In this document: one piece after another, positions 5,812 to 25,410 of the stretch
Layout: every line of letters starts with the position of its first letter
Numbering within the stretch: the first letter of the stretch is position 1
Assembly: GCA_946807835.1 (NCBI GenBank)
Contig: OX327683.1
Span: 2,299,001-2,363,000 of the forward strand
Length of the DNA stretch: 64,000 bases
Source: Ailanthus altissimus
Lineage: Eukaryota; Streptophyta; Magnoliopsida; Sapindales; Simaroubaceae
Direction: 5' to 3'
Notes under the pieces: model-generated
Seen by the model: only the letters and a program-made list of their open reading frames with translations
What the model was told of the DNA's origin: nothing
The model's database searches: none
Translations under genes and position numbers: made by a program

Positions 5812-5816
5812 CCATT
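5812..5816. repeat. Target-site duplication CCATT, left
   Basis: CCATT directly precedes the TG of the solo LTR at 5817 and recurs at 20632-20636 right after its terminal CA. Confidence 0.85.
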
Positions 5817-8485
5817 TGTGGTAACTAGTATCCATAATTGATAAGAATAAGTATTTATATATATATATATACATATTTTATTTGTACGTGGGTGATACTT
5901 GATTTATGTATTGTTATTAGTAGTGGTTGTATAGGTTAAGGGCATACTATTAGTATTGGGTTTATTTGCAAGACTTTAGATTTATTTTAAGGACCAAATT
6001 GTAATACTTTGAAAGTTTTGGGCGTAAATTTATAAATACCAAAAATTAGCCTCTTAGTGTAAAAATACACTTTTGAAACCCTAATTCACTCATTTTGGTT
6101 GAGCTACCTCTTTTAAAGTGAGAAAAGAGAGAAAGAAATGGGAGAGAAAGAGAAGAAGAAGAAAAAAAAAAAGTTAGAATTTAAGCTTTAATAGGTATAT
6201 TATAACTATTTCTTAATTTTTTGGGGTTAAATTAGTTAACATATTGTGAGAATTGATGATGATCTATGTAGATAGCTTGATAAATCATAATGAATTACAG
6301 AATTTCTACTTGATAGTCTCCTGATCCAGGAATTTTATAAATTGTTGTGATTCGATTCTGATTTTGAATTTTGAGTATATAAAATTAGACATGTTTAGAA
6401 TTTTTTGAGACTTTGAATCAATTGAAAATTCTAAAAATTGAATTTGTAGTGAATTTACCAAAATGACCCTGAAATTCTAAAAATTTCCTGTGTTAATAGT
6501 ATGATACAGTGACAAATAATTTTTGATCTGCTTCATGATCTTCAAAAATTATGAATTTATGGAATATTATAATTTGATATGTCTAATATGATATATTCAG
6601 AATTGAGAATTTAGATCATTGTAGTTAAATTGTTATGATTTTCTAAAGAGTGTCAACTGATTGCAGTATTTAATTAACAGATTTTTAAAGTTATGGAATA
6701 AAATAGTTTTAAAATACTTTTGGTAGGGATTTTAAAGTAAAATATTTATCATGGATTGAAATATGTGTCAAGAGAAATTTTGTGGTAGTTTTGTAATTTT
6801 TTAGTTAGTATCTAGTTTTATAAAATTACGAGACTAAATACTGTTCAGTAAATATCTTGATCCCGCCAGAATAATAGTTTGGATTTAATGGTGTTTATGA
6901 AATGAAATGTGTAGGAATTATGCTATAATATTCATATATAAGAAAGATATATGAGTGAAGAAAGATATATTCTGATTTTGGAGTAATTGGACATCATTTA
7001 ATGTATAAAAAAAGTTTGTTAAGTGTAAGTGGTTAGAATGACAGGTTTTGAGAAATCAAGTAATTAGACCAATTCGATGTGATAAGTACAATATGTATAA
7101 TTTTGTAAGCTATTTAAAGTATTTTGTGTGAATGTTGAGACTTATGGAAGGATTAATCTCCATTGATAGGCTAAGGAGAATTAAGCCTTGTAGCCGAAAG
7201 TGCTAAAAGGTAAGTATACTAGACTTTTACTGAAATCACAATAAGCATAGTAATTGTCTATGTATGATTTTGTAAATGTACTTAAAAATATATTTATGTT
7301 ATGCCAAAGTATATTTGATATGAAATGTGAAAAATATATGTTTATGAATGTGAGCATTGACCTTGAGCATAGACATACATGTGTTTATGAAAGTGAGCTT
7401 TCAAAATGAAATGTGTTTAACAAAAAAAACTTTTGAAGTGGAAAATGTCCATGAGATACGTTTTGTGTTTTGACGATGCTTAAACTCACTATTTACTTAG
7501 TAGGCACTTTATGTAATTTGTGGAGTCTATGTGTGGCCTTTCCTTCGAGATTGGTATATGTTATGTGTTCTGTATGTAGAGAGGATCCTATTGGTACCTA
7601 AAGGAAGATTGAGTCATCACATTCGTGTGGTGATGTATTAGTGCATGTGAGAGGACTCACCGATAATCAGGGTGAGAGTTTGGCTCTTACCTTCGGGCAT
7701 GAGCATTATATATGTATAATTTAAACCTCACTTGTATTATTCTTCTCATACGATATGTCATCTACGAGTGACATTTGGCTCATTATGTGATATGTGATAT
7801 GGAAGTTTTACTAAGTAGTAGTAGTTAAGTGATGGTATTCCTATTATATGTTTCGAATGAATGTGTAAGCGCTTACTTAACATGTAATTTGATAAGATTA
7901 TAATTTTGATTTATCACAGCATATCATACACATACATTGTGTACATATATGTATTTGTATTTTGATATATGAAAAACTAGTATGTTTACTGAGTTTTATA
8001 CTCATTATAGTTTATGGTGATTTCAAGTAAATAAGGTACATGTGTACTTAACGGATTTGGCAAGGCTCCTGCTGTCCCTTGGGTTCCCTAAGTTGCTAGG
8101 TTGCTAAATGTTTCATTTGTGGACACATAGTTTAAGATATTTGATTTGTCCCTATTGAATAAATACTTATGTATTATTTTATTGTGTGTGGTTGTATTTG
8201 GTTTAAGTTTCACCAAGTGTGGTTATGTGTTGATTTTAAGTAAGAATTTGCAATGAATATATTCTGGGCTTCCAGTAATAAAATTGCTACTGGTGACGTA
8301 GTAGAGTGTTAATCTTTAAGAAAACTCTGCGTATCTCCGGTTTACTAATTGCCCCAATTATAATTCAATTGTTATAATTCTGAAAGAAATTGAAATAAAT
8401 GTTTAAATATTGTCAATAGAAGTTTATGGCTATATGTTAGGTTATGGGTTGATTTTAGTGTTGAACTTACTAGCAACTTGCTAAG

Positions 8486-8490
8486 GATTC
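8486..8490. repeat. Target-site duplication GATTC, left
   Basis: GATTC precedes the 5' LTR at 8491; the matching GATTC is at 20517-20521. Confidence 0.9.
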
Positions 8491-9928
8491 TGATAAACAC
8501 TTGAAATTACACATTTAATAAGAGTTTTACATGATTGTTTTGTATTACTAGTGTATTTAATTTTCTTAACTTAAGTATGTTTACAATATTGTACTTAATT
8601 ATCTTATAACTGTTTTGTGGCAGGTTCGGTAAAATGGGCATAACTTTCTACCTAAAGATCCAATTGAGGTGATTCTTAATTCTGTGCAGAGCTGACTCAA
8701 TGGGCTAACATATTGTATTTCAAAAATTATTGGAAATTCGAGTGTTTAGAGGGTGAAAATGGGCCTAGAACATAATTGATCTGCAGTACAGGCCCAGTTT
8801 GAACAGTTATCAGTATTTGGCTCATAACTATAGAAATACGTATCTAATACGTATGAGATCACTCAATTTGGAAAGATAAGAGACTTATCTACAACTTTTA
8901 TGTTTTGAGTGACAGCTAATTCGGATCACATCAATTCCAAATTGGATAATCAAGTGGGTGCCCAAGTGATAATGAATGCAAATTATTTTGCCACCATTCT
9001 TGACTTTCATCAACCAAGTGGTTCCCTCCAAATTTGTCTCGATTTATCCATGTTTTTCTATAAATAGGTGGCTTGTTTATGCCTAAAGAATGTAATTAGA
9101 AAGTTAGAATTTAGTTCAAAATACTTTTCCTTTGTATCCATTTTCTTGTACTATTATTTCTCTTGTTTACTATTAAGTCATGTTATTTCTTCTTCCATTT
9201 CTTTTCTTTTCATTTAGTTTTATTATGTCCAAATAATTTTGTTTAAGCTAAGGTGAAAGGGTGAAGCTCTTGGCAAGGTAATAAGATATGTTTAATATTT
9301 ATTCATGAATTTAATGCTTCATTTTTAAGTTATACAAATTTATATATGATGTATTTATTTTGTTTGTAGAATTAATACCATTTCTTCTAAAGTGGTGATT
9401 TTTGATTTATTATTGACAAACTTAATACTTGGCACAATAAATTCTTGAAACCATTTATAAGATTTGGTTTATATAACATTTCTTGTAAAGTGGGAGTCTT
9501 AATTTATTGTAGACAAATATAAAGATTGGCATAATAAATACTTGAACCCATTTATAAGATTTGGTGTATAATAATTGAAAGAAATAAATACTAATCAATA
9601 TATAAATGATAATGAACTTTAATTGCTATATTTTTCGGTTGAAACCTCATTTGTGTGAGGATTCTAATTGAGTTATAAAAAAATAAAAAGTTAAATATAT
9701 TCTTACTTCTTATGCCAAGAGTGAATCATCGTAACCTTAGCTTTTTATTTGAATTGGTTAATTGAAATAATATTTACAAACATCTTATACTGCATTAATT
9801 ATCTTTAAAGTGTTTATAATTTGTAATTTTAATTCTACTTCCCTGTGGATCGACCCCGTTCTCATCGGGTTATTTATTACTTCGACAATCCTGCACTTGG
9901 GAATAACTTCTATATTCTGGACGTGTCA
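8491..9928 (+). repeat. 5' LTR of the gypsy element
   Basis: 1438 bp, beginning TGATAAACACTTG and ending ACGTGTCA. The matching 3' LTR is offset by exactly 10,588 bases with substitutions only. A TATAAATAGG box at 9059-9068 implies a U3 of about 570 bases and transcription starting near 9090-9100. Confidence 0.95.
9059..9068 (+). promoter_or_regulatory. TATA box of the 5' LTR
   Basis: TATAAATAGG, identical at the homologous place in the 3' LTR (19647-19656). It would drive the full-length element RNA. Confidence 0.7.
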
Positions 9929-9934
9929 AGTTTT

Positions 9935-9952
9935 TGGCGCCGTTGTCGGGGA
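9935..9952 (+). other. tRNA primer-binding site
   Basis: TGGCGCCGTTGTCGGGGA, starting six bases after the LTR ends. This is the kind of primer site (reported as complementary to the 3' end of tRNA-Asp) seen in Athila-type gypsy elements; the tRNA assignment is from family knowledge. Confidence 0.8.
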
Positions 9953-10005
9953 GGTAACGTTAATATTTTATTTTGTTATTGTTTGTTTGTTTATTTTATT
10001 TTCAT

Positions 10006-10300
10006 GGAAGGCTGAGCCTCCTACTCGTTATTTATTATTCGTTTTTTTTATTTTTTTTTTATTTTTTTTTATTTTCATGGAAGGCCGAGCCTCCTAACAT
10101 ACTTTATTATTATTCTGTTTTTATTTTTGCGGAAGGCTGAGCCTCCTACTCTTTATTTCGTTTATTTATTATTTTTTACTTTTTATTTTAGTTTTTTTTT
10201 AATTTTCATGGAAGGCCGAGCCTCCTAACGTACTTTACTTTATTTATTATTCGCCTTTTATTTTTGCTTTTTATTTTAATGGAAGGCTAAGCCTCCTACT
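10006..10300 (+). repeat. Five-copy hairpin repeat in the gypsy leader
   Basis: The 18-base motif GGAAGGCYRAGCCTCCTA occurs at 10006, 10079, 10131, 10210 and 10281, separated by T-rich spacers, with spacings of 73, 52, 79 and 71 bases. Each can fold as GGAAGGC / GCCTCC with a three-base loop and one bulged base; the C/T and G/A variation is in the loop. The array lies between the primer site and gag, where packaging and dimerisation signals sit in retroelement RNAs. Confidence 0.8.
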
Positions 10301-10479
10301 ATTTATTTATTAACTTTTTATTATATAATCTAACATCACTAATCTAACTTCTAATTATTTATCTTTATTTTACTTTTAGTTTTACATATTTTATTTACTT
10401 GTGTAATATTTTATTTTATTTACCTGTGTTTAATATTTTATTTGTATTATTGTTATTGTATTTTGTTTTGTTTCTTTTT

Positions 10480-12612
10480 ATGAGCGGTTGGTTTCGAGAT
10501 CCTAATTCTCATCGTTTAGTAAAAGGTAATTTCAAAACTTCCTTTGATAATTTGTTAGATTCTCCTTCATCTTCTCATTCTTCACCAAGTAACACCATGA
10601 GCGAAAATCAAATTGAGGGACTCATAGACCTAGGGGACAATCAGTCCCAACATAATGACCATAACCGACTTAGGACACTTAAAGACTATATGAACCCTAC
10701 ACGAACCGGTGCACCATCTTGCTTAATTTTTCCACCGGATGCAACGCATTTTAATTTTAAGCCAGGCATTATCCAACTTTTACCCACTTTTCATGGCTTA
10801 GATGCAGAGAACCCTTATCTACATCTAAGAGAATTTGAAGAAGTGTGTAACACGTATAATGATCAAAATTGTAGCATGAACACAATTCGACTTAAGCTTT
10901 TCCCTTTTTCTTTAAAAGATAAAGCTAAAACATGGCTACAAAACCTTAGGCCAGGATCCATTTCTTTATGGGATGAGATGCAACAACAATTCCTGAAAAA
11001 AAAAATTCCCTCCCATAGAACAAATTCTTTCAAAAGACAAATCACCACTTTTGCCCAAAAACCAGGAGAGACCCTTTACCAATGTTGGGAAAGGTATAAA
11101 GAATTACTTAATACCTGTCCCCATCAGGGTTTTGAAACATGGAGAGTAGTCTCAAATTTCTATGAGGGCTTAACACCCCAAGTTAGGCAAATGGTAGAAA
11201 TGATGTGTAATGGAACATTTGAGGAAAAAAACCCAGAAGAGGCAATGAACTATCTTGACTTACTAGCAGAAAATGCTCAAAATTGGGACACTGCTGGTAC
11301 CTGTGAGGCACCTAGCAAAAATCAAACCACTACATCTAATGGGGGTATTTATCATCTTAAGGAAGACCATGACCTTCAAGCCAAATTAGCATCCCTTGCT
11401 AGAAAAGTCGAAACCTTAGAAATGAAAAAGAGTGGTCAAATAAAATCTGTTCAAGAAATTGTGTGTCACATTTGTGAAACCCATGATCACCCTACCAATG
11501 ATTGCCCAACTTTGCCTGCATTTAGGGAATGTCTCCATGAACAAGCCAATGTTTTAAACACGTTCAAACGGTCAAACAATAACCCATATTCACAAAACTA
11601 TAATCCTGGATGGCGAAATCACCCAAATTTTAGTTGGAGGAATGACACTCAAGCACAGGCTTCGCAACCACCTTTCCAACCACGCCAAAACTTTCAAAAT
11701 CATCAAGGTTATGCACCATATGTCCCACCTCCTAGGAAAAATCTTGAAGAAACTTTGCATACATTCATTGAAAAACAAGAGTCTGTTAATTCTCAAAATG
11801 CTCAAACATTTGCTGATTTGAAAGATACTCTTGCTAAATTTGCATCTGCACTGAACATTCATGAGAAAGGAAAATTTCCTTCTCAACCACAGCCAAACCC
11901 CAAAGGACAACATAACTCAAATGCATGTAGTTCAGGAAGTCAACACATGGATCAAGTTAAAGCAGTTATCACTCTTCGGAGTGGTAAAATTGTTGAAAAA
12001 GAAATTCCTGAACCTCATGAGAGCGATGAATCAATCTCTAAAGGCAAGGAAAGTGTTGAACCTACACTTAATAAAGAAAACACCAAACCTTCACCTCCAC
12101 CCCCATTTCCTCATGCATTACGTAATACTAAGAAGATGAATCACAATCCTGAAATTTTTGAAATCTTCAAACAGATAAAAGTTAATATTCCTTTACTGGA
12201 TGCTATTAAACAGGTTCCATCTTATGCAAAATTTTTGAAAGACTTATGCACAGTAAAAAGAAAACTGAATGTGAAAAAGAAAGCATTTTTAGCTGAACAA
12301 GTAAGTGCCATTCTTCAGAACAATAATTCTTTGAAATATAAAGACCCTGGTTGTCCTACAATTTCATGTATTATTGGAAGTCATAAAATTGAACAAGCCT
12401 TACTTGATCTTGGTGCTAGTATGAATTTATTGCTGTATTCAGTTTATCAGCAGCTCAATCTCGGGGAGTTAAAATCAACATCTGTAACTCTTTTACTTGC
12501 TGATAGATTAATAAAAGTACCAAGAGGGACAGTGGAGGATGTCTTAGTTCAAGTTGATAAATTCATATATCCTGTGGATTTTATCGTCTTGGACACAGAA
12601 CCTGTCAAATGA
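10480..12612 (+). CDS. Gag and N-terminal pol (protease) of the gypsy element, ends at a premature TGA
   Basis: The reading frame is open further upstream, but the first ATG is at 10480 (MSGWFRDPNSH), giving 710 codons. Order: Athila-type capsid domain (FHGLDAENPYLHLREFEEVC, KAKTWLQNL), a CCHC zinc knuckle at residues 329-342 (C-x2-C-x4-H-x4-C), a Pro/Asn/Gln-rich linker, and an aspartic protease whose active-site region reads LLDLGASMNLL around residue 643. In relatives gag-pol is a single reading frame. Here it stops at TGA 12610-12612 within the protease and then stays open in the same frame into reverse transcriptase. Gag itself looks intact, so this copy might still supply capsid protein; protease would lack its C-terminal part. 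Confidence 0.9.
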   Translation: MSGWFRDPNSHRLVKGNFKTSFDNLLDSPSSSHSSPSNTMSENQIEGLIDLGDNQSQHNDHNRLRTLKDYMNPTRTGAPSCLIFPPDATHFNFKPGIIQLLPTFHGLDAENPYLHLREFEEVCNTYNDQNCSMNTIRLKLFPFSLKDKAKTWLQNLRPGSISLWDEMQQQFLKKKIPSHRTNSFKRQITTFAQKPGETLYQCWERYKELLNTCPHQGFETWRVVSNFYEGLTPQVRQMVEMMCNGTFEEKNPEEAMNYLDLLAENAQNWDTAGTCEAPSKNQTTTSNGGIYHLKEDHDLQAKLASLARKVETLEMKKSGQIKSVQEIVCHICETHDHPTNDCPTLPAFRECLHEQANVLNTFKRSNNNPYSQNYNPGWRNHPNFSWRNDTQAQASQPPFQPRQNFQNHQGYAPYVPPPRKNLEETLHTFIEKQESVNSQNAQTFADLKDTLAKFASALNIHEKGKFPSQPQPNPKGQHNSNACSSGSQHMDQVKAVITLRSGKIVEKEIPEPHESDESISKGKESVEPTLNKENTKPSPPPPFPHALRNTKKMNHNPEIFEIFKQIKVNIPLLDAIKQVPSYAKFLKDLCTVKRKLNVKKKAFLAEQVSAILQNNNSLKYKDPGCPTISCIIGSHKIEQALLDLGASMNLLLYSVYQQLNLGELKSTSVTLLLADRLIKVPRGTVEDVLVQVDKFIYPVDFIVLDTEPVK

Positions 12613-15600
12613 TGTAATCCGATACCTATTATTTTAGGTCGTCCATTTTTAGCAACTTCTAACGCTTTGATTAATTGCAGGAATAGAGTAATGAAGCTTT
12701 CATTTGGAAACATGACACTTAAACTCAATGTTTTTAATATGTGTAAGCAACCATATGAAGAGGAGGATGAAAGTGAAGAAGGTGACATGATTGAAACGAT
12801 TGTGGAGGATCATATTCAAAAAGGGAGTTCTACCGATCCCTTAGAAATGTGTTTAATAAATTTATTTGAGTCAAATATACAATTAGATCCTGAAATCTCT
12901 GACATATGTTCTTTACTTGACTGTGCACAGGTGATTGAAAATAAAAGATGGAAACTAAAGTTTGAAGAATTGGGAGAAAATGAGGATAAAAAGAACGAAA
13001 TTTCAAAGTTGGAGTTAAAACCTCTGCCTGAAAGACTGAAATATGCATTTCTTGGAGAGAAACAAACTTACCCGGTGGTAATCGCTTCTACACTCACAAG
13101 TGAACAAGAAGATAAGTTGATTGAATTATTGAAAATGCATAAAAATATAATTGGGTGGACTTTAAAAGACATAAATGGTATTAATCCTTTGATTTGCACA
13201 CATAGAATACACCTAGAGGATAATGCCAAAACTTCCCAACAACCTCAAAGGAGATTAAATCCACATATGAAAGAGGTAGTGAGAGCTGAAGTTCTCAAAT
13301 TACTTGAAGTAGGAATTATCTATCCGATCTCAGATAGTAAGTGGGTAAGTCCTACTCAGGTAGTACCAAAAAAATCTGGAATCACAGTCATTGAAAATGA
13401 AAAAGGTGAGTTAATACCAACTCGAGTCTCATCTAGTTGGAGGATGTGCATAGATTATAGAAAATTGAACTTGGCCACTAGAAAAGACCATTTTCCTTTA
13501 CCATTCCTTGATCAGATTATAGAAAGAGTAGCAGGACATCCCTACTATTGCTTTCTAGATGGTTACTCTGGCTATTATCAAATTTCTATAGCACTAGAAG
13601 ACCAAGAAAAGACTACATTCACATGTCCTTTTGGAACCTTTGCTTTTAGAAGAATGCCCTTTGGACTTTGTAATGCCCCAGCAACATTTCAGAGATGTAT
13701 GTTAAGCATTTTTAGTGACATGATTAAGCATTATTTAGAAGTTTTCATGGATGATTTAACTGTGTTTGAAAATTCTTTTGATAATTGTCTTGAAAACTTA
13801 GAAAAGGTCTTAAAAAGATGTGAAGAAAAGAGTCTTGTATTGAACTGGGAAAAATGTCACTACATGGTTACTTCTGGAATTGTTTTGGGACATATAGTAT
13901 CTTCTAAAGGAATTGAAGTGGATAAGGCAAAGTCGAACTCATTACACATTTGCCTCCACCAAAAACAGTCAGAGAAGTCCGATCCTTTTTAGGACATGCT
14001 GGATTCTATAGGAGGTTCATAAAAAACTTTAGTGCTATATCTAAACCTCTTTGTAACCTCTTAGCAAAAGATGTATCATTTAAGTGGACTCAAGAGTGTC
14101 AAAATTCATTTGAAAAATTAATTGGCCTCTTAACATCTACTCCTATCATACAATCTCATGACTGGTCTTTACCTTTTGAGCTCGTGTGTGATGCTAGTGA
14201 CTACGCTGTTGGTGCTGTATTAGGACAAAGAAAGGAAGGTAAATCCTATGTAATTTATTACGCGAGTAGAACTTTAAACAGTGCACAAATGAATTACACA
14301 ACAACTGAAAAAGAACTACTTGCTGTAATATTTGCATTAGACAAATTTCGTTCTTACTTAATTAGTTCTTCAACTATTGTATTTACTGACCATGCTGCTG
14401 TAAGGTACTTAATGTAAAAACAGGATGCAAAACCAAGACTGATTCGATGGATTCTATTACTTCAAGAATTTATTATCACTATCAAGGATAACAAGGGAGC
14501 TGAAAATGTTGTTGCAGATCACTTATCAAGACTCACACCAGATTCATCAACAAAAATAACACCTATTAATGATTCTTTTCCTGATGAATTTTTATTTTCT
14601 ACTGTTACAATGCCCTGGTATGCTAATATTGTTAATTTTCTTGTAACAGGAGAAATGTCACCTCAATGGAATGCTCAAGACAAAAGAAAATTTTTAACGG
14701 AGGTGAGAAAGTTTTATTGGGATGATCCTTATCTCTTTAAATATTGTCGTGATCAAATATTTCGAAGATGCATACCCGACAATGAGGTAAATAAAGTTAT
14801 TGAATTTTGTCATTCTGAAGCATGTGGGGGACATTTCTCATCAAAGAAAACAGCTGCAAAAATCTTACAGTGTGGATTTTATTGACCCACTTTATTTAAA
14901 GATATACATGCATTTTGTATAACTTATGAAAATTGTCAAAAGTTGGGATCAATTTCAAAACGAAACATGATGCCTTTGAACCCCATTCTTGTTATTGAAA
15001 TCTTTGATTGTTGGGGGATAAATTTCATGGGACCATTTCCGTTATCATTTGGATTTACGTATATCTTAGTTGCAGTAGATTATGTCTCAAAATGGATTGA
15101 AGCTATTCCATGTCGACATAATGACCATAAAACAGTCATGAAAATTTTGAAAGAAAATATCTTAAGTCGATTTGGAATCCCTCGAGCCATTATAAGTGAT
15201 GGGGGTAAGCATTTTTGTAATAGATCATTTGAAACATTAGTGAAAAAATATGGTATTACTCATAAAGTTGCCACCCCTTATCATCCTCAGACAAGTGGAC
15301 AAGTTGAATTAGCAAATAGGGAGATAAAACAAATTTTAGAAAAAACTGTAAACCCAAATCGCAAAGATTGGTCTTTAAGACTAAATGATGCACTGTGGGC
15401 TTATAGAACTGCTTTTAAAACTTCATTGGGTATGTCTCCCTATAGGATAGTTTATGGAAAACCTTGTCACTTACCTGTGGAACTTGAGCATAAAGCCTAC
15501 TGGGCTATTAAAACTTTCAATAAAAATCTTGATTCTGTTGGACACATACGTAAATTACAAATAAATGAACTTGAAGAATTGAGAAATGATGCATATGAGA

Positions 15601-15911
15601 ATTCAAAAATTCATAAAGCTAAAATTAAAGCCTTTCATGATAAAAAAATTCAGAGAAAAACATTTGACACTGGTCAGAAGGTTTTGCTTTATAATTTTCG
15701 ACTTCACATATTCCCTGGAAAATTAAGATCAAGATGGAGTGGCCCTTTTATTGTGAAACATGTGTACCCTTATGGAACAATTGACATTGAAAATCCTAGA
15801 AATGGGAATGTGTTTAAGGTAAATGGGCAAAGATTCAAGCCGTTTCTAGAAAATCAAGCTTTTCATGAAGAATTTACGTTCCTGTCGGATCCTTGTTACG
15901 AGACCAATTAA
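12613..15911 (+). pseudogene. Gypsy pol: reverse transcriptase, RNase H, integrase (broken)
   Basis: Continues the gag frame. Reverse transcriptase runs from about 13250 to 13930 with core FMDDL at 13744-13758 (both aspartates present). A single missing base near 13932 shifts the frame. RNase H follows (about 14180-14417; YASRTLN, TEKELLAVIFAL), then stops TAA 14415-14417 and TGA 14883-14885. The integrase zinc region (about 14806-14940) has lost one cysteine ligand (Tyr codon at 14925-14927). In the integrase core the first catalytic aspartate is asparagine (AAT at 15021-15023, WGINFMG); the second (IISDGG) and the glutamate (GQVELANRE) remain. The frame ends at 15911 after a chromodomain-less C-terminal region. 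It cannot make a working polymerase or integrase. Confidence 0.92.
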
Positions 15912-16144
15912 TCTTTGTTTTATATATTTACATATTTATATATATTTATTCTTCTTCTAACATTTTTTTTACTTGCAGGTTAATTTAGTAGTTTTGTTAA
16001 AGTTTTATTTTGCACCCCGGTTAAGCGGCGGATAACGGTACTCCGTGATATTTCAAATCGGTTTTGTCAGTTTCCCATAATTACTGATATCTTCTCTTCT
16101 TCCCCCTTTTCTTATAAAAAAAAATATATGACATTCTAAAAAAT
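15912..16144 (+). other. Non-coding spacer with a candidate 3' splice site after pol
   Basis: A pyrimidine tract followed by TTTACTTGCAG ends at 15978, a good plant 3' splice-site match. Athila-type and related elements express genes downstream of pol from spliced RNA, so this site may serve the ORFs at 16145 and 17029. The donor was not identified. Confidence 0.45.
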
Positions 16145-16672
16145 TTGAAAAAGCGTTTTCCCTCATTGCCTCAAAATTCCTTGAAGAAAATTTACCAAGC
16201 AAGATGTGAAAGATTAAGGTTATTAATGATTATGAATATACCTGTTGATTTAAGTTGGTTAATTGAAGTCAAAGTTAGATTGACAGGTGAATTTTCAGAC
16301 TCATTAATTTCCTACATGCCTGGCTTAGGTAAAAGCTCTTTTTCAAAAAATCGAAGAGCAAAACGATTAAATGTTTGTTACAAGTGTGCACGCACGACTT
16401 GCAACACACGTTGCCGCACTTTAGGAATGGTGTCTATAAATCGTGAAGATAAAATTAGGTTCATTAAGGATGGCCTGAGTAAGGAGTCTTTAGATAATAT
16501 CTTATCGACTCTTGAGACGCATCCTAGTGGATATGTGCATATTGCAATTCATGAATTATGGGACATATTCCTAAAAGAACATGAGCGGTACAGTCTCGGG
16601 AATCTGACTTTAAAAGACCCTGTTTGCCAATTTATAAGAAAATTGGATGGGAAGCCTATCCCCGACCCATAG
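16145..16672 (+). CDS. Unknown retrotransposon ORF between pol and LOG
   Basis: An open frame of up to 175 codons. It opens at a TTG; the first in-frame ATG codons are near 16226-16235 (LLMIMNIPVDL), so the true start is unclear. It may be spliced from an upstream exon through the acceptor at 15978. Visible features: a basic N-terminus, the segment LISYMPGLGKSSFSKNRRAK and a four-cysteine cluster CYKCARTTCNTRC (C-x2-C-x4-C-x3-C) that could bind zinc. The C-terminus reads KDPVCQFIRKLDGKPIPDP. No signal peptide or membrane segment is seen, which argues against the envelope-like protein of classical Athila elements. I do not recognise the family. The frame is intact although pol is riddled with stops. 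Confidence 0.6.
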   Translation: MKKRFPSLPQNSLKKIYQARCERLRLLMIMNIPVDLSWLIEVKVRLTGEFSDSLISYMPGLGKSSFSKNRRAKRLNVCYKCARTTCNTRCRTLGMVSINREDKIRFIKDGLSKESLDNILSTLETHPSGYVHIAIHELWDIFLKEHERYSLGNLTLKDPVCQFIRKLDGKPIPDP

Positions 16673-17028
16673 AGGGCGTTTAAGCCGTTACTGGACGTAA
16701 AATCAGAGGAAGATGTGAGCCACAATCACAACTACTTGTATATATTTACTATAGCTGTTATTTTTAAATGTTTCATTTCAAACTCAAATGTCTTTTCAAT
16801 AATCAACCACCTATAATCCTTTTTGAAAATTTTGCATTTTAAGCCGACAACCCATGTGACTTTTCCAGCTAACAAATTAAAAATTGGTAAAAGGTATTGA
16901 ATCTTGTATTTCAAGCCAATAGTCATGTGATTTAACTTTGCAATACCTTTGGCTCTATAAATACATTGCATTATTTCTGCATCTTTGTACAAACTTAAAA
17001 TCATTCAAGAGAGAGGGTGAGTGTAATC
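16673..17028 (+). promoter_or_regulatory. Spacer with a TATA box upstream of the captured LOG copy
   Basis: A non-coding stretch ends in GGCTCTATAAATACATTG (TATAAATA at 16956-16963), 73 bases before the ATG at 17029, followed by a purine-rich leader (AGAGAGAGGGTGAG). This resembles a plant core promoter and 5' leader. It may be an internal promoter for the LOG copy, brought along with it or acquired by chance; only the sequence pattern supports it. Confidence 0.45.
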
Positions 17029-17682
17029 ATGAAAGGATCATCAACTCGTAAATTCACAAAAATTTGTGTCTTTTGTGGATCCAGCCCTGGAAAAACTAGT
17101 GAGTTTATAGAAGCAGCAGAAACCCTTGGTAAGATGTTAGCTGAGCGTAATATTCATTTAGTATATGGGGGAGGTAGTCTTGGATTAATGGGACGTGTGG
17201 CAACCGCTACACAAAATAATGGCAGTCGAGTTTTGGGTATCATACCAAAAGCTCTAGCTGTTGGAGACATTGTAGGAAAAACAATTGGGGATGAGTTACA
17301 GGTATCATCAATGCATGAACGAATTTCTTTTATGCTTCGTAATGCTGATGCCTTCATAGCTCTACCTGGAGGTTTCGGAACATTGGAGGAAATTTTTCAA
17401 ATTGTCTCATGGGCACAATTGCAAATCCATAAAAAAACCCATTGGTTTGTTAAACGTTGATGGTTTTTATAATGGGTTGTTATCTTTTCTTGACTATGCG
17501 GTGGAAAAACAATTCGTCTCATCTGCAGCACGACAGATCCTCATTTCTGCTTCAACTGTTGATCAGTTACTCGATGAACTACAAGCTTTTACACCTCTAT
17601 CTGATCCAACAATGAGTCAGATAGATTGGTATACTGATAACAGTGAAAAGAAACGCATGATAGATTTGACGCTTCGTCTGTA
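17029..17682 (+). pseudogene. Captured LOG-type cytokinin riboside 5'-monophosphate phosphoribohydrolase (one frameshift)
   Basis: LOG enzymes release active cytokinin bases from nucleotide precursors in the cytosol or nucleus. From ATG 17029 the product shows the full Rossmann-like fold signature: KICVFCGSSPGKT, LVYGGGSLGLMG, VLGIIPKAL, the MHER arginine, and the hallmark PGGFGTLEE with its catalytic glutamate. The family-typical NVDGFYNGLLSFLD lies in the other frame: the coding sequence shifts by one base at an A7 run near 17430, then stays open to the stop at 17682, about the usual length (215-220 residues). The run RKAEM typical of canonical LOGs after MH is RISFM here. Plant LOG genes have several introns; this copy has none, so it probably came from mRNA. 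It lies inside the gypsy element, between pol and the polypurine tract. Confidence 0.92.
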
Positions 17683-19068
17683 GCCTATCTATTTCTATGT
17701 ATTTTTAAGCTTTTTTGTGTGGCTTGTTTTATTTTGTTGTAGGTTTAATTTTCAATAAAAGATGTTTCAGGTGATATCTTCTATATTTTATTCTTTCTAT
17801 ATTTTGACATTGAGGACAATGTCTCAATCTGGTTGGGGGGAGGATAGTTGATATATAATGTTAGTGTTAATTATTTTATTTTGTTGTTGTTATCACTTTG
17901 TTATGTAAAAAAAAAAAATTATCATGAATGGCGTGAGTAAAATGTTCATTTATGTATTCTTGAGACGCATTCTAGTTCTAGAATGGCAAAGTAAATAGTA
18001 CATTATAAACTTTTGAAACACATTCTAATTGGTTTATTTTTAATGCATTTTATGTATAATTGTTTGTTGCTTAAGTTTTTGGTAACTCTTGCGTAAATAA
18101 ATTTGCTTTACTATCGATGTATGATTTCAAAATTGTTTAGTTTAAATCACTTTCTCTATTTAGGTTACTAAAGAATAACTTCTGAAATTATTTCTTGAGA
18201 ACAATACTAAGTCTTGTGGTAAGATGGATGATTCAATATATATAGCCAAAAGAATTTCCATGTTTAAGTATACATATTATTTTCTAAACTCACATATCTT
18301 TTGTGAGTGAGTGGAGAGGTTTGAGATAACAGCTTACGAACTTTCATTGATCCTTTGAAATGGTTAATTTTTATTTGGAATGACATTATTTAGGATGATG
18401 AATGATTTGGTTGCTTAGCTGAAGGATAAAAAAAAAAATTGGAAAAGTATTATGGTGATAAATTGCTCTTATGTTGTAATGATTCCTTATGTCTTTCAAA
18501 AAAAAATGAGTAAAAAAAAAAATTTAAAAAAAAAGAAAGAAAGAAAAGAAGTCAATTCAGTTCAATAAAGTCTTCATTCAATTTTAGAAGACTAAAGTCA
18601 TTAGGAAGCAATCTTATCACCGAATTCTATATTCGTAAGATTCGCATTAAATAATTAAAGTCTTGAAGCTGGCATTTGACAATAATGGTTTGACTCTAAA
18701 TATTTGATTTTTCTATCTTTGGATCAATGTTAGTTTGTCTGTATGTCCTTAAATGTAACTTTTTCTTGAGCGATTATCTGTTTTCCAACTCCATGAGTGA
18801 AATCCTAAGTCATTAAACAAGTTATTCACCTGTAAGGATATGGAGTTGAGGCTTTTACTTGGAATATTTTTAAGGCTATATATATGTTGTGGTTTGTGGT
18901 AAGAAGGCTTTGGCTTAATTCACACATACCCAAAAATATTTTTGGAAGTTATGATTGAAATAACCTTTATAGCGATTGTGATTTTAAAACTGACGTTTTG
19001 TTTGAAATACTTAGGTAGTGTTCAAATTTTATTTATGATCGAATTGCTAGGGACTAGCAATAAGCCAG
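17683..19068 (+). other. Long non-coding 3' region of the gypsy element
   Basis: About 1.4 kb without a coding frame. An AATAAA signal lies at 17754-17759, just after the LOG stop. At about 17812-17845 there is GACATTGAGGACAATG followed by GGTTGGGGGGAGGA, which resembles the sequence preceding the 3' LTR in many Athila/Tat elements, a second polypurine-like tract. At 18490-18550 there is an A-rich stretch ending in GAAAGAAAGAAAAGAAG. Confidence 0.6.
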
Positions 19069-19078
19069 TTGGGGGGTG
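19069..19078 (+). other. Polypurine tract
   Basis: TTGGGGGGTG immediately before the TG of the 3' LTR; primes plus-strand DNA synthesis in retroelements. Confidence 0.85.
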
Positions 19079-20516
19079 TGATGAACACTTGAAATTACAC
19101 ATTTAATAAGAGTTTTACATGATTGTTTTGTATTACTAGTGTATTTAATTTTCTTAACTTAAGTATGTTTACAATATTGTACTTAATTATCTTATAACTG
19201 TTTTGTGGCAGGTTCGGTAAAATGGGCATAACTTTTTACCTAAAGATCCAATTGAGGTGATTCTTAATCCTGTGCAGAGCTGACTCAATGGGCTAACATA
19301 TTGTATTTCACAAAGTATTGGACATTCGAGTGTTTAGAGGGTGAAAATTGGCCTAGAACATAATTAATCTGCAGTACAGGCCCAGTTTGAACAGTTATCA
19401 GTATTTGGCCCATAACTATAGAAATACGTATCTAATACGTATGAGATCACTCAATTTGGAAAGATAAGAGACTTATCTACAACTTTTATGTTTTGAGTGA
19501 CAGCTAATTCGGATCACATCAATTCCAAATTGGATAATCAAGTGGGTGCCCAAGTGATAATGAATGCAAATTATTTTGCCACCATTCTTGACTTTCATCA
19601 ACCAAGTGGTTCCCTCCAAATTTGTCTCGATTTATCCATGTTTTTCTATAAATAGGTGGCTTGTTTATGCCTAAAGAATGTAATTAGAAAGTTAGAATTT
19701 AGTTCAAAATACTTTTCCTTTGTATCCATTTTCTTGTACTATTATTTCTCTTGTTTACTATTAAGTCATGTTATTTCTTCTTCCATTTCTTTTCTTTTCA
19801 TTTAGTTTTATTATGTCCAAATAATTTTGTTTAAGCTAAGGTGAAAGGGTGAAGCTTTTGGCAAGGTAATAAGATATGTTTAATATTTATTCATGAATTT
19901 AATGCTTCATTTTTAAGTTATGCAAATTTATATATGATGTATTTATTTTGTTTGTAGAATTAATACCATTTCTTCTAAAGTGGTGATTTTTGATTTATTA
20001 TTGACAAACTTAATACTTGGCACAATAAATTCTTGAAACCATTTATAAGATTTGGTTTATATAACATTTCTTGTAAAGTGGGAGTCTTAATTTATTGTAG
20101 ACAAATATAAAGATTGGCATAATAAATACTTGAACCCATTTATAAGATTTGGTGTATAATAATTGAAAGAAATAAATACTAATCAATATATAAATGATAA
20201 TGAACTTTAATTGCTATATTTTTCGGTTGAAACCTCATTTGTGTGAGGATTCTAATTGAGTTATAAAAAAATAAAAAGTTAAATATATTCTTACTTCTTA
20301 TGCCAAGAGTGAATCATCGTAACCTTAGCTTTTTATTTGAATTGGTTAATTGAAATAATATTTACAAACATCTTATACTGCATTAATTATCTTTAAAGTG
20401 TTTATAATTTGTAATTTTAATTCTACTTCCCTGTGGATCGACCCCGTTCTCATCGGGTTATTTATTACTTCGACAATCTTGCACTTGGGAATAACTTCTA
20501 TATTCTGGACGTGTCA
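19079..20516 (+). repeat. 3' LTR of the gypsy element
   Basis: 1438 bp, beginning TGATGAACACTTG and ending ACGTGTCA. By eye it differs from the 5' LTR at about 12 positions, all substitutions. Followed by GATTC (20517-20521), the second half of the target-site duplication. Confidence 0.95.
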
Positions 20517-20631
20517 GATTCCTATGTTGAATTAAAGTTTGAAATTTTAAGTAATATTATTTATGAGTGCATATTATTGAATGAATGTAAATACTGTCAT
20601 ATGTCGAATCTTTTGGGTCTGGGGCGTGACA

Positions 20632-20636: not shown

Positions 20637-22444
20637 GGCTTTGTGATACCCCAAAAACTTAGCCTCCACAGTTTGTTATCAATTATCCATTTTACCCATA
20701 AAAAGAATTTCACAACAACCTGTTCCCAGATATGCTTAGTAACTGCCGATACATTCCACAAGCTTATAAATTTAATGTCAAGTCCTCCTTCTTTTTTACC
20801 TTTGCATACCTCATTCTAGCCCACTAATCCTCTATTCCTCTATTGGTTGCTTCCATGTTATAAGAAATTACTGCATTTATTTTTAATTTCTTTGGTGACT
20901 GACTTAGGCAGGGTGAACATAGAACACTAGTAGACATGCATACTCATTATGACGAATTTTATTAATTGCAACCACCCTGCATAACTCAAATATTTCACAG
21001 TCCATCTTGAGATTCTAACGGTGATCCTATTGATAAGCTCCTGACATTGGTCTTTCTTCATTCCCCCTGAAATTAGGGGAATACCTAAGTACTTAATAGA
21101 TAGCACACCTTGTTGAAACTGAGTTATCTGCAAAATTATCTCTTTGGTAGGCTGAGAGACATTCTCAAAGAAAATGAAGCTCTTCCTCGCGTTAAGGTAT
21201 AGTGCTGAAACCATTGAAAATCCATCAAGCACTTGCTTAAAGTGACTCACTGACCTGTCATCGCCATGAGAGAACAAGAATAAATCATCTGTAAACATCA
21301 AATGATTTAGCTTCAGCCTCTTACACCCCCTGTGATATATAAACTAGTTCTGAGGAATACAGCTTAGGTTTCTACTAAGGTATTCTATGGTCAACACAAA
21401 AAGTAAAGGGAACATGGGATCCCCCTGCCTCAAGCCTTTCTTCCCCGGGAAAAAACCCTCTAATCTTCCATTTATCACAACTGGGTACATACTTGTTCTA
21501 ACACACTTCATGATAATATTGATAAAGTGATAAGGGAAGTTAAGCCCCATCAATACCTCTTCTAGGAAATCCCAGGAGACCGAATCATAAGCCTTGCGGA
21601 GATCTATCTTTAGTACACATCTTGGGCTACCACTATCACGATCATAACCCCTCACAAGTTCATGTGCCAGTAAATCATTATCGGATATCTTCCTATTAAG
21701 AATAAAAGCTAATTGACTAGGGTTGACTAAATAGCTCACCATATTCCTTAGCCTGCAGGTAATTATTTTGGTGATACATTTGTATAGGACCGTACAATAT
21801 ACAATTGGTATAGTCTCCCAAGCTATCAAGATTATGAATCTTAGGCACGATAGTAATAGTAGTGGCATTTATAGGGTTGTAGAACTGACCTGAAGAGAAG
21901 AAATGTTGCACAGCTTTAGTAACCTCCATTCCAAGAATGTACCAACATTTTTGAAAAAAAAATAACTGTTATAGCCATTAGGTCCTAGGGCTTTATCACC
22001 ATTGATACTGAAAATAACATTTTTGACTTCTTGGGCTGTAACAGGAGCATTCAGCATGTCTCTATCATCTACCTTTAGTTTCGGGCCAGCATCTATGAGT
22101 CTCTTTTGTATGGACGCCCTATAGGAAGTGTAGGTTCCTAACAAATCTTTGTAGTAGCCGACTATGGCATCTTTTACAACCTTGGGATCGTTAGAATTGT
22201 CTCCATTTTGGCTCTCAATAGAAATGATTCTATTCTGAGCTCTCCGCTGCTTAACGGACTTATGAAAGTAGCTGGTGTTTAAATCCCCCATTTGAATCCA
22301 TCTAATTCTTGATTTTTGTCTGATAATGCTTTTTTCAGCATAAATAAGTTTATTTAAATACTGATAAATGCCCATTTCTTCATCTTGCAGAATTTGGTTG
22401 AATGGATTATGGATCTGACTACTCTGTAAGGATGCCAACATCAT
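20637..22444 (-). pseudogene. LINE reverse transcriptase (decayed)
   Basis: Minus-strand reading gives the L1 reverse transcriptase in order. The N-terminal part (about 21869-22444) has SRIRWIQMGDLNTSYFHKSV and KALGPNGYNSYFF. The palm (21344-21868) has SQLAFILNRKISDNDLLAHE, LKIDLRKAYDSVSWDFL and GLRQGDPMFPLLF. The catalytic box MMFTDDLFLFSHGD (about 21260-21301) keeps both aspartates, with threonine where alanine is usual. The rest (20927-21260) has IKYLGIPLISGG. Frame breaks occur between these pieces. The thumb and zinc tail continue at 4960-5790 beyond the LTR insertion. Confidence 0.88.
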
Positions 22445-22661: not shown

Positions 22662-25410
22662 TGTAGTAACCAGTATCCATAACCGGTAAGAATATGTATA
22701 TTTATATATATAAATATACGTATTTTATTTGCATGTGGGTGATCCTTGATTTATATATTGTTATTAGTAGTGTTTTTATAGGTTAAGGATATACTATTAG
22801 TATTGGGTTTATTTGCAAGACTTTGGAATTATTTTAGGGACCAAATTGTTATACTTTGAAAGTTTTGGGGGTGAATTCGTAAATACCAAAAATTAACCAC
22901 TTAGTATAAAAATACACTTTTAAAAACCCTAATTCTCTCATTTTGGTCGAGCTACCCATTTTTAGAGAGAGAAGAGAGAAATAAAGGAGAGAGAAAGAGA
23001 AGAAGAAGAAGAAAAAGAAGAAGAAATTGGAATTTTGGATCTTTAGAGGTATATCACAACTAATTATCAATTTATTGGTGTTAATTAAGTTAATTTCTTT
23101 AAGTTTTGATTTCTGAAAATATGTATAATTAAGGATTTGATGTGTATTTCGTTTGATGTTGTGAGAATTGATGATGATCTATAAGATAGTTTGATAAATC
23201 ATGATGAATTATGGAATTTCTGCTGGATAACCTCTTGATCTAGGAATTTTATAAATTGTTGTGATTCGATTCTGGTTTTTAATTTTGAGTATATGAAATT
23301 AGACATGTTTAGGATCATCTGAGACTTTGAATCGACTGAAAATCTCGGAAATTGAATTTGTAGTGAATTTACCAAAATGACCCTGGAATTCTGGAAATTT
23401 CCTGTGTAAACAGTATGATACAGTGGAAAATAATTTTTGACCTGCTGAATGATCTTTAAAAATTATGAATTTGTGGAATATGATAATTTTATATGTCTAA
23501 TATGATATACTCGGAATTGAGAATTTGGATCAATGTGGTTGAAGTGTTATGAATTTCTAAAGTGTATCAGCTCATTGCAATATTTGATTAACAGATTTTT
23601 AAAGTTATAGAATAAAATAGTTTTAAAATACTTTTGGCAGTGATTTGGAAGTGAAATATTTATCATGGACTGAGATATGTGTTAGGAGTAATTATGTGGT
23701 AGTTTTATAATTTTTGAGTTAGTATATGATTTTATAGAATTGGGAGATTGAATACTGTTCAGTAAGTATCTTGATCCTGTCAGGCTTGTAGTTTGGATTC
23801 GATGGTGTGTATGGAATGGATTGTGTAGGAAATTTGATATAATATTCATATATAAGAAGGATATATGAGTCAAAAATGGTATATTCTGATTTTGGAGTAA
23901 TTGGACATCATTTGATGTATTAGAAATTTTTGTTAAGTGTAAGTGGTCAGAATGACAGGTTTTGAGAAACCAAATATTTAGACCAATTTGATGTGATAAA
24001 TGCATTGTGTATAATTTTGTAAGCTATTTAAAGTATTTTGTGTGAATTGTGAGGCTTATGAAAGGATTAATCTCCATTGATAGGTTAAGGAGATCTAAGC
24101 CTTGTGGCTGAAAGTGTTAAGAGGTAAGTATACTAGACTTACTACTGGAATCACAATAAACATAATAATTGTTTTGTATGATTTTGTAAATGGGGTTAAG
24201 AATATGTTTATGATATGTCAAAGTATATTTTGATATGAAATGTGAATATATATTTATGAATGTGAGCATTGACATTGAGCATGGACATACATGTGTTTTT
24301 GAAAGTGAGCTTTCCAAAATAAGATGCGTTTAACAAAGAAAGCTTTTGAAGTGTAATATGTCCATGAGAAATATTTTGTGATTTGAGGGTACTTGAACTC
24401 ACTGTTAACTTAGTAGGCATTTTATGTGATTTGTGGAGCCTTTATGTGTGGCCTTTCCTTCGGGATTGGTATATGTTATGTGTTCCGTATGTAGGGAGGA
24501 TCCTATTGGTACCTAAAGGAAGTGTGAGTCATCACATTCGTGTGGTGGCGTATTGGTACATGTGAGAGGACTCACCGATGATCAGGGTGAGGGTTTGGCT
24601 TTTACCTTCGGGCATAAGCGTTATATATGTGTGATTTAAAGACCTCACTTGTACTATTCCTCTCATACGGTATGTCACCTACGAGTGACATTTGGCTCAT
24701 TATGTGATATGTGATATGTAAGTCCTACTAAGTAGTGGTTGAGTGATGGTATTCCTATTATATGTTTTGAAAGAATGTGTAAGCGCTTACATGATATGTG
24801 ATTTGATAAGATTATGATTTTGATTGATCACAGCATATCATACATATGCATTGTGTACATATATGTATTTGTATTTGATATATGAAAAATTAGTATGCTT
24901 ACTGAGTTTTATACTCATTATAGTTTATGGTGATTTCAGGTAAATAAGGTACATGTGTGCTTAGCGGATTTGGCAAGGCTTCTACTGTTCCTTGGGTTCC
25001 CTAAGTTGCTAGGTTGTTGTGTGTTTCATTTGGGGACACGTGGGATAGGATATTTGGTTTGTCCCTATTGAATAAATACTTATGTATTATTTCATTGTGT
25101 GTGGATTGGATTTGGTTTAAGTTTTATAAAGTGTGGTTATTGGATGATTTTAAGTAAGAATTTGCAATGGATATATTCTGGGCTCCCGGTAACAAAGTTG
25201 CTACTGGTGACGTAGTAGAGTGTTAATCTCTGAGAAAACTCTGCGTATCTCCGGTTTAATAATTGTCCCAGTCATAATTCAATTGCTATAATTCTGAAAG
25301 AAATTGAAATGAAAGTTGAAAATTTTGTGTAATATTATTTATGAGTGCACATGCAGTGAATGAATGTAAGTGATGTCGTGTGTCGGATCTTTTGGGTCTG
25401 GGGCGTGACA
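22662..25410 (+). mobile_element. Solo LTR, family X copy 2
   Basis: 2749 bp, starting TGTAGTAACCAGTATCC and ending GGTCTGGGGCGTGACA, with 5 bp TSD CTCTA on both sides. It aligns with copy 1 (5817-8490 plus 20522-20631), except that it lacks about 100 bases just before the point where copy 1 was hit by the gypsy element. The plus strand has a promoter-like segment (AGTATAAAAATACAC near 22910, AAACCCTAATTCTCTC near 22925) and a GA-rich leader (22965-23030). It also has the CATTATAGTTTATGGTGATT and AGGTAAATAAGG segments common in Tekay/Del-type chromovirus LTRs. Inserted in the LINE between endonuclease and reverse transcriptase. Confidence 0.9.

Follow-up and report, generated by a model that had tools for sequence, protein, structure and literature searches.

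The window, by which we mean the whole stretch of 64,000 nucleotides analysed here, contains a 12,026-bp LTR retrotransposon at 8491–20516 that carries, at 17029–17682, a homologue of the plant LOG genes, which encode cytokinin riboside 5′-monophosphate phosphoribohydrolases; all of the element's features lie on the plus strand. Its 5′ LTR (8491–9928) and 3′ LTR (19079–20516) are 1438 bp each, and the target-site duplication GATTC flanks the element on both sides. Self-BLAST paired the two LTRs at 99.17% identity, with 12 mismatches over 1438 bp (K2P 0.0084), which would correspond to about 0.3–0.6 My at the rates that we assume (1.3e-8 to 7e-9). Between the LTRs lie a gag ORF (10399–12612; PF03732, E 1.4e-18), pol pieces for reverse transcriptase and RNase H that occupy two ORFs in the window copy (12667–14417; PF00078, E 7.7e-29; PF17919, E 5.3e-33; PF17917, E 4.8e-30) and an integrase (14943–15911; PF00665, E 5.6e-17). 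The LTR pair, the target duplication and the order gag, reverse transcriptase, RNase H and integrase are those of an LTR retrotransposon. The PBS-like sequence TGGCGCCGTTGTCGGGGA follows the 5′ LTR, and we take it to be an Athila-like Ty3/gypsy element on the strength of the initial annotation and of features, this one included, that we associate with that group. Two extra genes, an ORF for a nucleic-acid-binding protein (NABP) and then LOG, lie after the integrase and before the 3′ LTR, which begins 1.4 kb past the end of LOG.

The LOG homologue is intronless, and its frame is broken near 17431 in the window copy, a defect that the initial annotation had also described. The 5′ piece (17029–17457) matched PF03641 (E 3.7e-24), TIGR00730 (E 4.2e-42; 143.9 bits against a cut-off of 96.35) and, in the PDB, Arabidopsis At2g37210 (E 2.7e-44); the 3′ piece matched PF03641 (E 2.7e-10) and the At2g37210 chain (E 2.9e-16). 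The equivalog model NF058542 of NCBIfam gave 98.4 bits against a cut-off of 300, a shortfall of little weight because the query was only the 143-residue 5′ piece of the broken frame, and in PHROGs LOG matched just a DprA-like entry (E 1.7e-9). Three relatives of this LOG from protein databases (P0001, P0003 and P0005) scored far over the PF03641 cut-off. The homologue is real, with a match far above chance, and the profiles, the PDB matches and the LTR pair agree with the earlier description of a LOG homologue within an Athila-like element of about 12 kb with near-identical LTRs and a GATTC duplication.

The NABP ORF (16145–16672) is of the carlavirus type. It matched PF05515 (E 2.4e-6; 28.1 bits against a cut-off of 23), no match to PF01623 was reported for it, and its start is damaged in the window copy. 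At 16100–16150 this start is unlike that of the copies beginning MDDILKNLKK. The counterpart in a second family of such elements, family C, passed both cut-offs (PF05515, 31.5 against 23; PF01623, 28.1 against 20.9), and five relatives were distributed as three that passed both, one that passed one and one that passed none. Similar to the carlavirus cysteine-rich (CRP)/NABP proteins of PF05515 and PF01623, the ORF has Pfam matches over the cut-off and a Cys cluster that comes after a basic stretch; it differs from them in that it is about 182 aa long and sits in a retrotransposon. Carlavirus CRPs are described in the accessible part of PMC8839810 as nucleic-acid-binding silencing suppressors, one of which is linked to cell proliferation. 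The ORF had 513 protein matches. For three LOG/NABP protein pairs the longest contigs were equal in size (8723, 4511 and 2128; equal sizes under 2 kb were left uncounted), which hints that the two genes may be linked elsewhere. Relatives of the NABP ORF were absent from the phage collection at E 1e-5, and PHROGs gave no match to it.

The element has inserted into an older LTR of another family, which it splits into 5816–8490 and 20517–20631. When joined, the flanks align on either side of the junction to a solo LTR of the window, to which the older LTR is about 86% identical; some 80 extra bases lie close to the junction. The solo LTR (22662–25410, 2749 bp) has CTCTA on each side and is 97% identical to the LTR of another LOG-carrying element, element B (L100:1138–3857), described below; the older LTR belongs to the same LTR family. 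ORFs on the minus strand at 20927–22444 resemble a LINE-type reverse transcriptase, as judged by eye from the translation.

Family A copies and their recent movement

A DNA search of the host genome (939 Mb) with LOG returned, as the best 40 of 2415 candidates, the window copy and 39 others at 99% identity over the full 654 bases; we call this group family A. A 37-bp promoter core of family A has 358 exact copies genome-wide, and the control has none. Apart from this count and the equivalent count of 143 for family B, both of which are exact-pattern counts, our numbers of LOG copies in the genome are lower bounds. The full 217-codon frame is open in 21 of the 40 family A copies, the window included. 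Sister copies thus do carry LOG, at least 39 of them besides the window copy, and many keep it in frame; the outcome that no other copy has LOG, which the initial annotation had named as refuting, did not occur. A genome search with PF03641 found the domain spanned without an internal stop in 150 of 150 matches, these being the best 150 of 4943 candidates and, as top scorers, an unfair sample of intactness; with a piece of Arabidopsis LOG3 as the query, a stop was present in 8 of the 150 best-scoring matches.

We fetched the LTR regions of 20 family A copies. Both LTRs were present in 17 of them (one 3′ LTR was partial), and three had no 5′ LTR in the fetched region. The two LTRs of these 17 copies differ at 0–17 sites, and at no more than one site in six. 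Matching 5-bp duplications flank 13 of the 17, all 13 different. Given so few LTR differences and distinct duplications among copies, we conclude that family A has moved very recently with LOG at a fixed place. The NABP frame ends 357–359 nt before LOG in 18 of the 20 copies; two (L019 and L023) lack such an ORF. We rejected a later insertion of LOG with a duplication of its own: the 3′ LTR lies downstream of LOG in 20 of 20 copies (partial in one), and it is the duplications around the whole element that match in the 13 copies. At G000:C31:19952702–19991651, four LOG matches lie 12–13 kb apart, with no matching target duplication in the three that were read; this cluster resembles a tandem array in which neighbouring whole elements have LTRs in common.

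LOG ends at residue 143, as it does in the window, in 10 of the 40 copies (window included). This form occurs at independent sites, namely L012 (duplication TATAT; LTRs differing at 5 sites), L013 (GACAG; 17 sites) and the window (GATTC; 12 sites), and elements with a broken LOG have therefore probably moved lately. An alternative explanation for the shared end is repeated slippage in the A run.

Two further families and signs of selection on LOG

The host genome contains at least three LOG families: family A, to which the window element belongs, and families B and C. In family C (L096, L097 and L099) the gene order is the same as in A, with the NABP ORF between the integrase and LOG and a TATA box between that ORF and LOG; DNA identity between A and C is about 71% in the integrase and about 77% in the NABP region. 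In family B (L089–L095), the LOG unit is 78% identical in DNA to that of A and the carrier is different. At the C5 locus, 7.7 kb of DNA was read in two stretches (L100 and L101), which exceeds one 6,550-bp unit of element B. A 2720-bp LTR there adjoins a primer site of the tRNA-Met type and a purine tract. Among the frames of at least 90 codons at this locus, we recognised LOG, a 422-codon ORF and a small number of short frames, and none that encodes gag-pol. Element B is a non-autonomous LTR element unrelated to the carrier of family A. Judged by the primer site and the purine tract, LOG runs antisense to the LTR, as does the 422-codon ORF; this orientation was read in detail at one locus, and the internal region recurs at a second (L098) with 93.5% identity.

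The 422-codon ORF, which lies beside LOG at L101:735–2000, contains an LDLSL stretch. Its dN/dS between two copies was 0.31, and its two pieces in L098 had no Pfam match at E 1.

In the window, the LOG unit has a TATA box, CTCTATAAATAC, at 16953–16964, 76 nt before the LOG ATG, and an AATAAA poly(A)-type signal at 17754–17759, about 70 nt past the LOG stop. A TATA box lies within 100 nt upstream of LOG in 36 of the 40 family A copies and did not arise in any of 2000 shuffles of 16733–17028; AATAAA follows LOG within 120 nt in 39 of the 40 copies and is also present in the B copy L101. The distance from the TATA box to LOG is 63 nt in family C. In element B, CTCTATAAATA stands 71 nt before the LOG ATG (L101) and, as worked out from positions, about 73 nt before the ATG of the 422-codon ORF. 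The promoter core of family B has its 143 exact copies genome-wide against none for the control. Families A and B share a unit that extends from the TATA box to past AATAAA (16953–17831, aligned at 78% over 880 columns to L101:2524–3371), and no other DNA similarity of L101 to the window was found at E 1e-5. Since this common unit starts at the TATA box, what moved between A and B was more than a captured LOG mRNA.

Pairwise dN/dS values (NG86) were computed for 21 A, 6 B and 2 C sequences of LOG, with the B and C copies chosen by their PF03641 score, which favours intact domains. Between families, the ratio was 0.33 for A and B (dS 0.48, dN 0.156), 0.24 for B and C, and 0.14 for A and C, this last value being rough at a dS of 1.76, which is near saturation. 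Within families, it was 0.84 among the 21 open, young A copies, 0.97 for the single C pair, with few changes, and 0.30 among the B copies, a value lowered by the choice of B by domain score. Codons 1–134 of the 40 family A copies hold 17 missense, 3 nonsense and 5 silent variants, so that 20 of 25 change or end the protein, close to the neutral 3.3:1. For the NABP ORF, dN/dS between A and C was 0.20–0.21 (six A copies); integrase dS was saturated in all seven copies compared. The initial annotation had held that a dN/dS near 1 in all copies would mark a passive passenger. That pattern was found among the young A copies; by contrast, it was not found between families. As read from these sequences, the pattern is that of a transposon protein, with decay after insertion and constraint along the active lineage.

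One possible explanation is that LOG was captured and is carried without use, its intact frames reflecting young copies. The near-neutral variants in codons 1–134 would fit this explanation, as would the 0–17 differences between the LTRs of 17 copies and the recurrence of the same broken form at independent sites. We nevertheless regard it as very improbable, since the frames are open between families separated by a dS of 0.48–1.76 with dN/dS of 0.14–0.33, and since the TATA box has been kept at 63–76 nt in three families.

Active site, tail and ancestry of the LOG protein

We classed LOG proteins as element-type or host-type by their better BLASTP score to P0005 or to P0129 (Arabidopsis LOG3-type), with families A, B and C as the element-type LOGs seen inside elements. 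Arg and Glu are the catalytic residues of LOG enzymes. Of 93 element-type LOGs of 205–225 aa, 89 retain the catalytic-type Arg (in the motif MHxR) and 91 retain the Glu of PGGxGTxxE; the complete PGGxGTxxE motif occurs in 84, and the His of MHxR is conserved in only 53. Such retention also argues against carriage without use, since in a passenger so old one would expect stops throughout. P0005 is a database protein grouping with family C. Its predicted model has the LOG fold (pLDDT 85.9), and Foldseek matched it best to At2g37210 (2a33; 54% identity, E 9.4e-23), with At5g11950 also found (1ydh; 51% identity, E 2.2e-22). The element LOG resembles these plant LOGs in its fold and in its catalytic-type Arg and Glu. 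Its active site is complete, and by homology the enzyme would release free cytokinin from the nucleotide form inside the cell.

Host LOG genes contain introns. The element LOG differs from them in being intronless, in forming a separate clade, and in ending in a basic patch and an EAR-like tail, translated as KKRMIDLTLRL in the window copy (17648–17680). Element-type LOGs generally end in KKRK-LDLTLRL or a variant, and those of family B in KKRKIDLNLTP. LxLxL and DLNxxP are two published forms of the EAR consensus, according to the portion of PMC6283911 that was available. One or the other occurs in the last 20 residues of 76 of 98 element-type LOGs and 0 of 77 host-type LOGs, or 24 of 31 and 0 of 9 after thinning at 85% identity; proteins outside 205–245 aa were dropped from these counts (35 of 133 element-type and 12 of 89 host-type). 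LxLxL is a short motif; when the tails of the thinned element-type set were shuffled, 2.0 of them showed an EAR form on average, and never more than 7 in any of 1000 shuffles. In a set of 28 proteins sharing less than 85% identity, the tail is conserved almost as well as the core and the preceding linker is among the most variable stretches; in the P0005 model the tail is predicted to be disordered or flexible, with pLDDT below 50 at 202–211 and 213–215. The strict motif is absent from 22 of the 98 element-type LOGs, among them a branch from Xanthoceras sorbifolium.

The Xanthoceras proteins (P0040, P0063 and P0146, each standing for up to 39 member sequences) have the basic patch KKRRLA and no leucines. 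This branch is basal in the element-type clade and may show what the tail was like before it acquired the EAR motif; on the LOG tree, the EAR state needs three changes.

It is also conceivable that only the LOG enzyme is under selection, with a gain from local cytokinin, and that the tail is neutral, structural or a contact for an element protein. This reading would account for the kept catalytic residues, the LOG fold and the low dN/dS over the whole ORF, as well as for the Xanthoceras branch, which retains the basic patch without the leucines. We consider it unlikely, however, because the tail is conserved nearly as well as the core behind a variable linker, and because family B has DLNxxP in place of LxLxL, as if the class of motif and not its letters were kept (the two forms being those given in the available part of PMC6283911).

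To place the element LOGs, we built a tree of 77 hand-picked rows with the tail columns left out, which comprised 40 of the 133 element-type and 30 of the 89 host-type proteins, six G000 copies and one bacterial LOG. A branch with support 98/97 separates the element-type LOGs from the sampled host LOGs, and 200 of 200 bootstrap trees agree; a quick tree gave this branch a support of 92. A recent bacterial origin was rejected, the single bacterial row being a long outgroup. Named close relatives among the best 120 matches come from Reevesia (Malvaceae), Diplodiscus, Populus, Paulownia, Parasponia and Xanthoceras, and because they span these genera, the LOG lineage must be old or have moved between plants. 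The initial annotation had proposed that the young window element itself captured a host LOG mRNA and that a LOG tree would find the donor gene. The lack of introns fits template switching from an mRNA; the cargo is, however, older than this element, since its LOG falls in a single clade that excludes every sampled host LOG, and since the same genome holds such a LOG in an unrelated non-autonomous element as well as in two Athila-like families that have diverged from each other. Nor was a host donor found: by identity and frame, we read 149 of the 150 best-scoring genome matches as element-type, and the sole host-type-looking locus, C24:25566093, is 72% identical to the query and has a stop.

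Repeated captures from an unsampled host LOG subfamily, in which case the constraint and the tail would belong to the host donor, are improbable in our judgement, although less so than carriage without use. Host LOGs were sampled as the best 120 of one profile search, and the LOG8 type is thin, with one tree row; together with the failure to find the donor in the best 150 genome matches, where only C24:25566093 looks host-type, this leaves room for such a subfamily. On the other side, the element-type LOGs form one clade with full bootstrap agreement, the tail is absent from every host-type LOG counted, A and C agree in gene order and in the genes next to LOG, and A and B share the TATA-to-poly(A) unit. 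Moreover, among the 120 nearest matches that supplied the named relatives above, most of them unnamed, we saw no set of named single-copy host genes across many plants.

A candidate effector gene in a retrotransposon lineage

Taken together, we think it probable that LOG is an old, selected and self-contained accessory gene of an LTR retrotransposon lineage that works like a pathogen effector. The LOG unit, with its intronless ORF and poly(A) signal, would be transcribed from its own TATA box, and the enzyme would raise free cytokinin inside the host cell. The flexible tail may act in two ways, its basic, NLS-like patch taking the protein into the nucleus and its EAR motif binding TOPLESS-type corepressors. 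Through local cytokinin activation and corepressor recruitment, the element would act as an effector, and its gain might be more divisions in cells leading to the germ line, or the repression of defence genes; if dividing or less defended cells are favoured in this way, new insertions would be passed on. A fuller version of this model is that the lineage makes its own effector, a cytokinin enzyme with a TOPLESS-recruiting nuclear tail and an LTR-independent promoter, in a unit common to a non-autonomous antisense carrier, whose second ORF has the same TATA box, and with a NABP partner in the Athila-like carriers. We offer this version tentatively, as possible rather than probable.

Steinbauerova et al. 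reportedly described two Athila-like elements with a LOGL4-similar ORF in 2011. That study (Genetica, doi 10.1007/s10709-012-9654-9) is cited in PMC9289625, the accessible text of which reports that LTR consensuses from Citrus sinensis, C. clementina and P. trichocarpa contain YgdH (LOG) domains. LOG cargo in plant LTR elements is already in print, and the idea is not new. The Citrus and Populus Ty3/gypsy elements resemble ours in having a LOG-type (YgdH) domain in a plant Gypsy LTR element; in its accessible text, PMC9289625 gives presence by species and does not mention frames, selection, promoter, EAR tail, NABP or an antisense carrier. A literature search on LOG or YgdH with retrotransposons returned only this paper, plus one on wheat pericarp by co-mention, and a search on carlavirus NABP or Carla_C4 with retrotransposons returned none. 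Papers joining LOG, the EAR motif and TOPLESS were co-mentions only, as judged by titles and the starts of abstracts, and a term search of the available text of two surveys of extra ORFs (PMC7264820 and PMC6317226) found no word beginning with LOG or cytokinin. In a search that most subscription journals lay outside, we found no published account of the tail, of a promoter belonging to LOG itself, of a carrier with LOG antisense or of NABP in such elements.

Two kinds of known system are close to the one proposed here. In orchid Ty3/gypsy elements, AlkB is similarly an additional enzyme domain that has become fixed in a plant Ty3/gypsy lineage; it is an m6A demethylase acting in RNA demethylation, as the accessible text of PMC9289625 has it, whereas the element LOG would act in hormone activation. 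The effectors Jsi1 of Ustilago (PMC8126959) and HaRxL21 of downy mildew (PMC7446885) likewise bring a parasite protein to a plant corepressor. Their interaction with TOPLESS is stated in the portions of these papers that were available, whereas for the element LOG we infer it from a motif on a transposon's hormone enzyme.

Some genes annotated as plant LOGs may be genes of such elements, candidates being 46 Reevesia entries in the best 120 matches and some Populus LOGL10 entries. The use of the accessory genes of plant retrotransposons is mostly unknown. Here, such a gene has a known enzyme fold, a complete active site, low dN/dS between families, promoter-like signals and, in TOPLESS, a candidate target, which would make the question of whether transposons manipulate host physiology testable with ordinary assays. 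If the proposed model is true, transposable elements would, like pathogens, be manipulating the hormone and corepressor pathways of their hosts.
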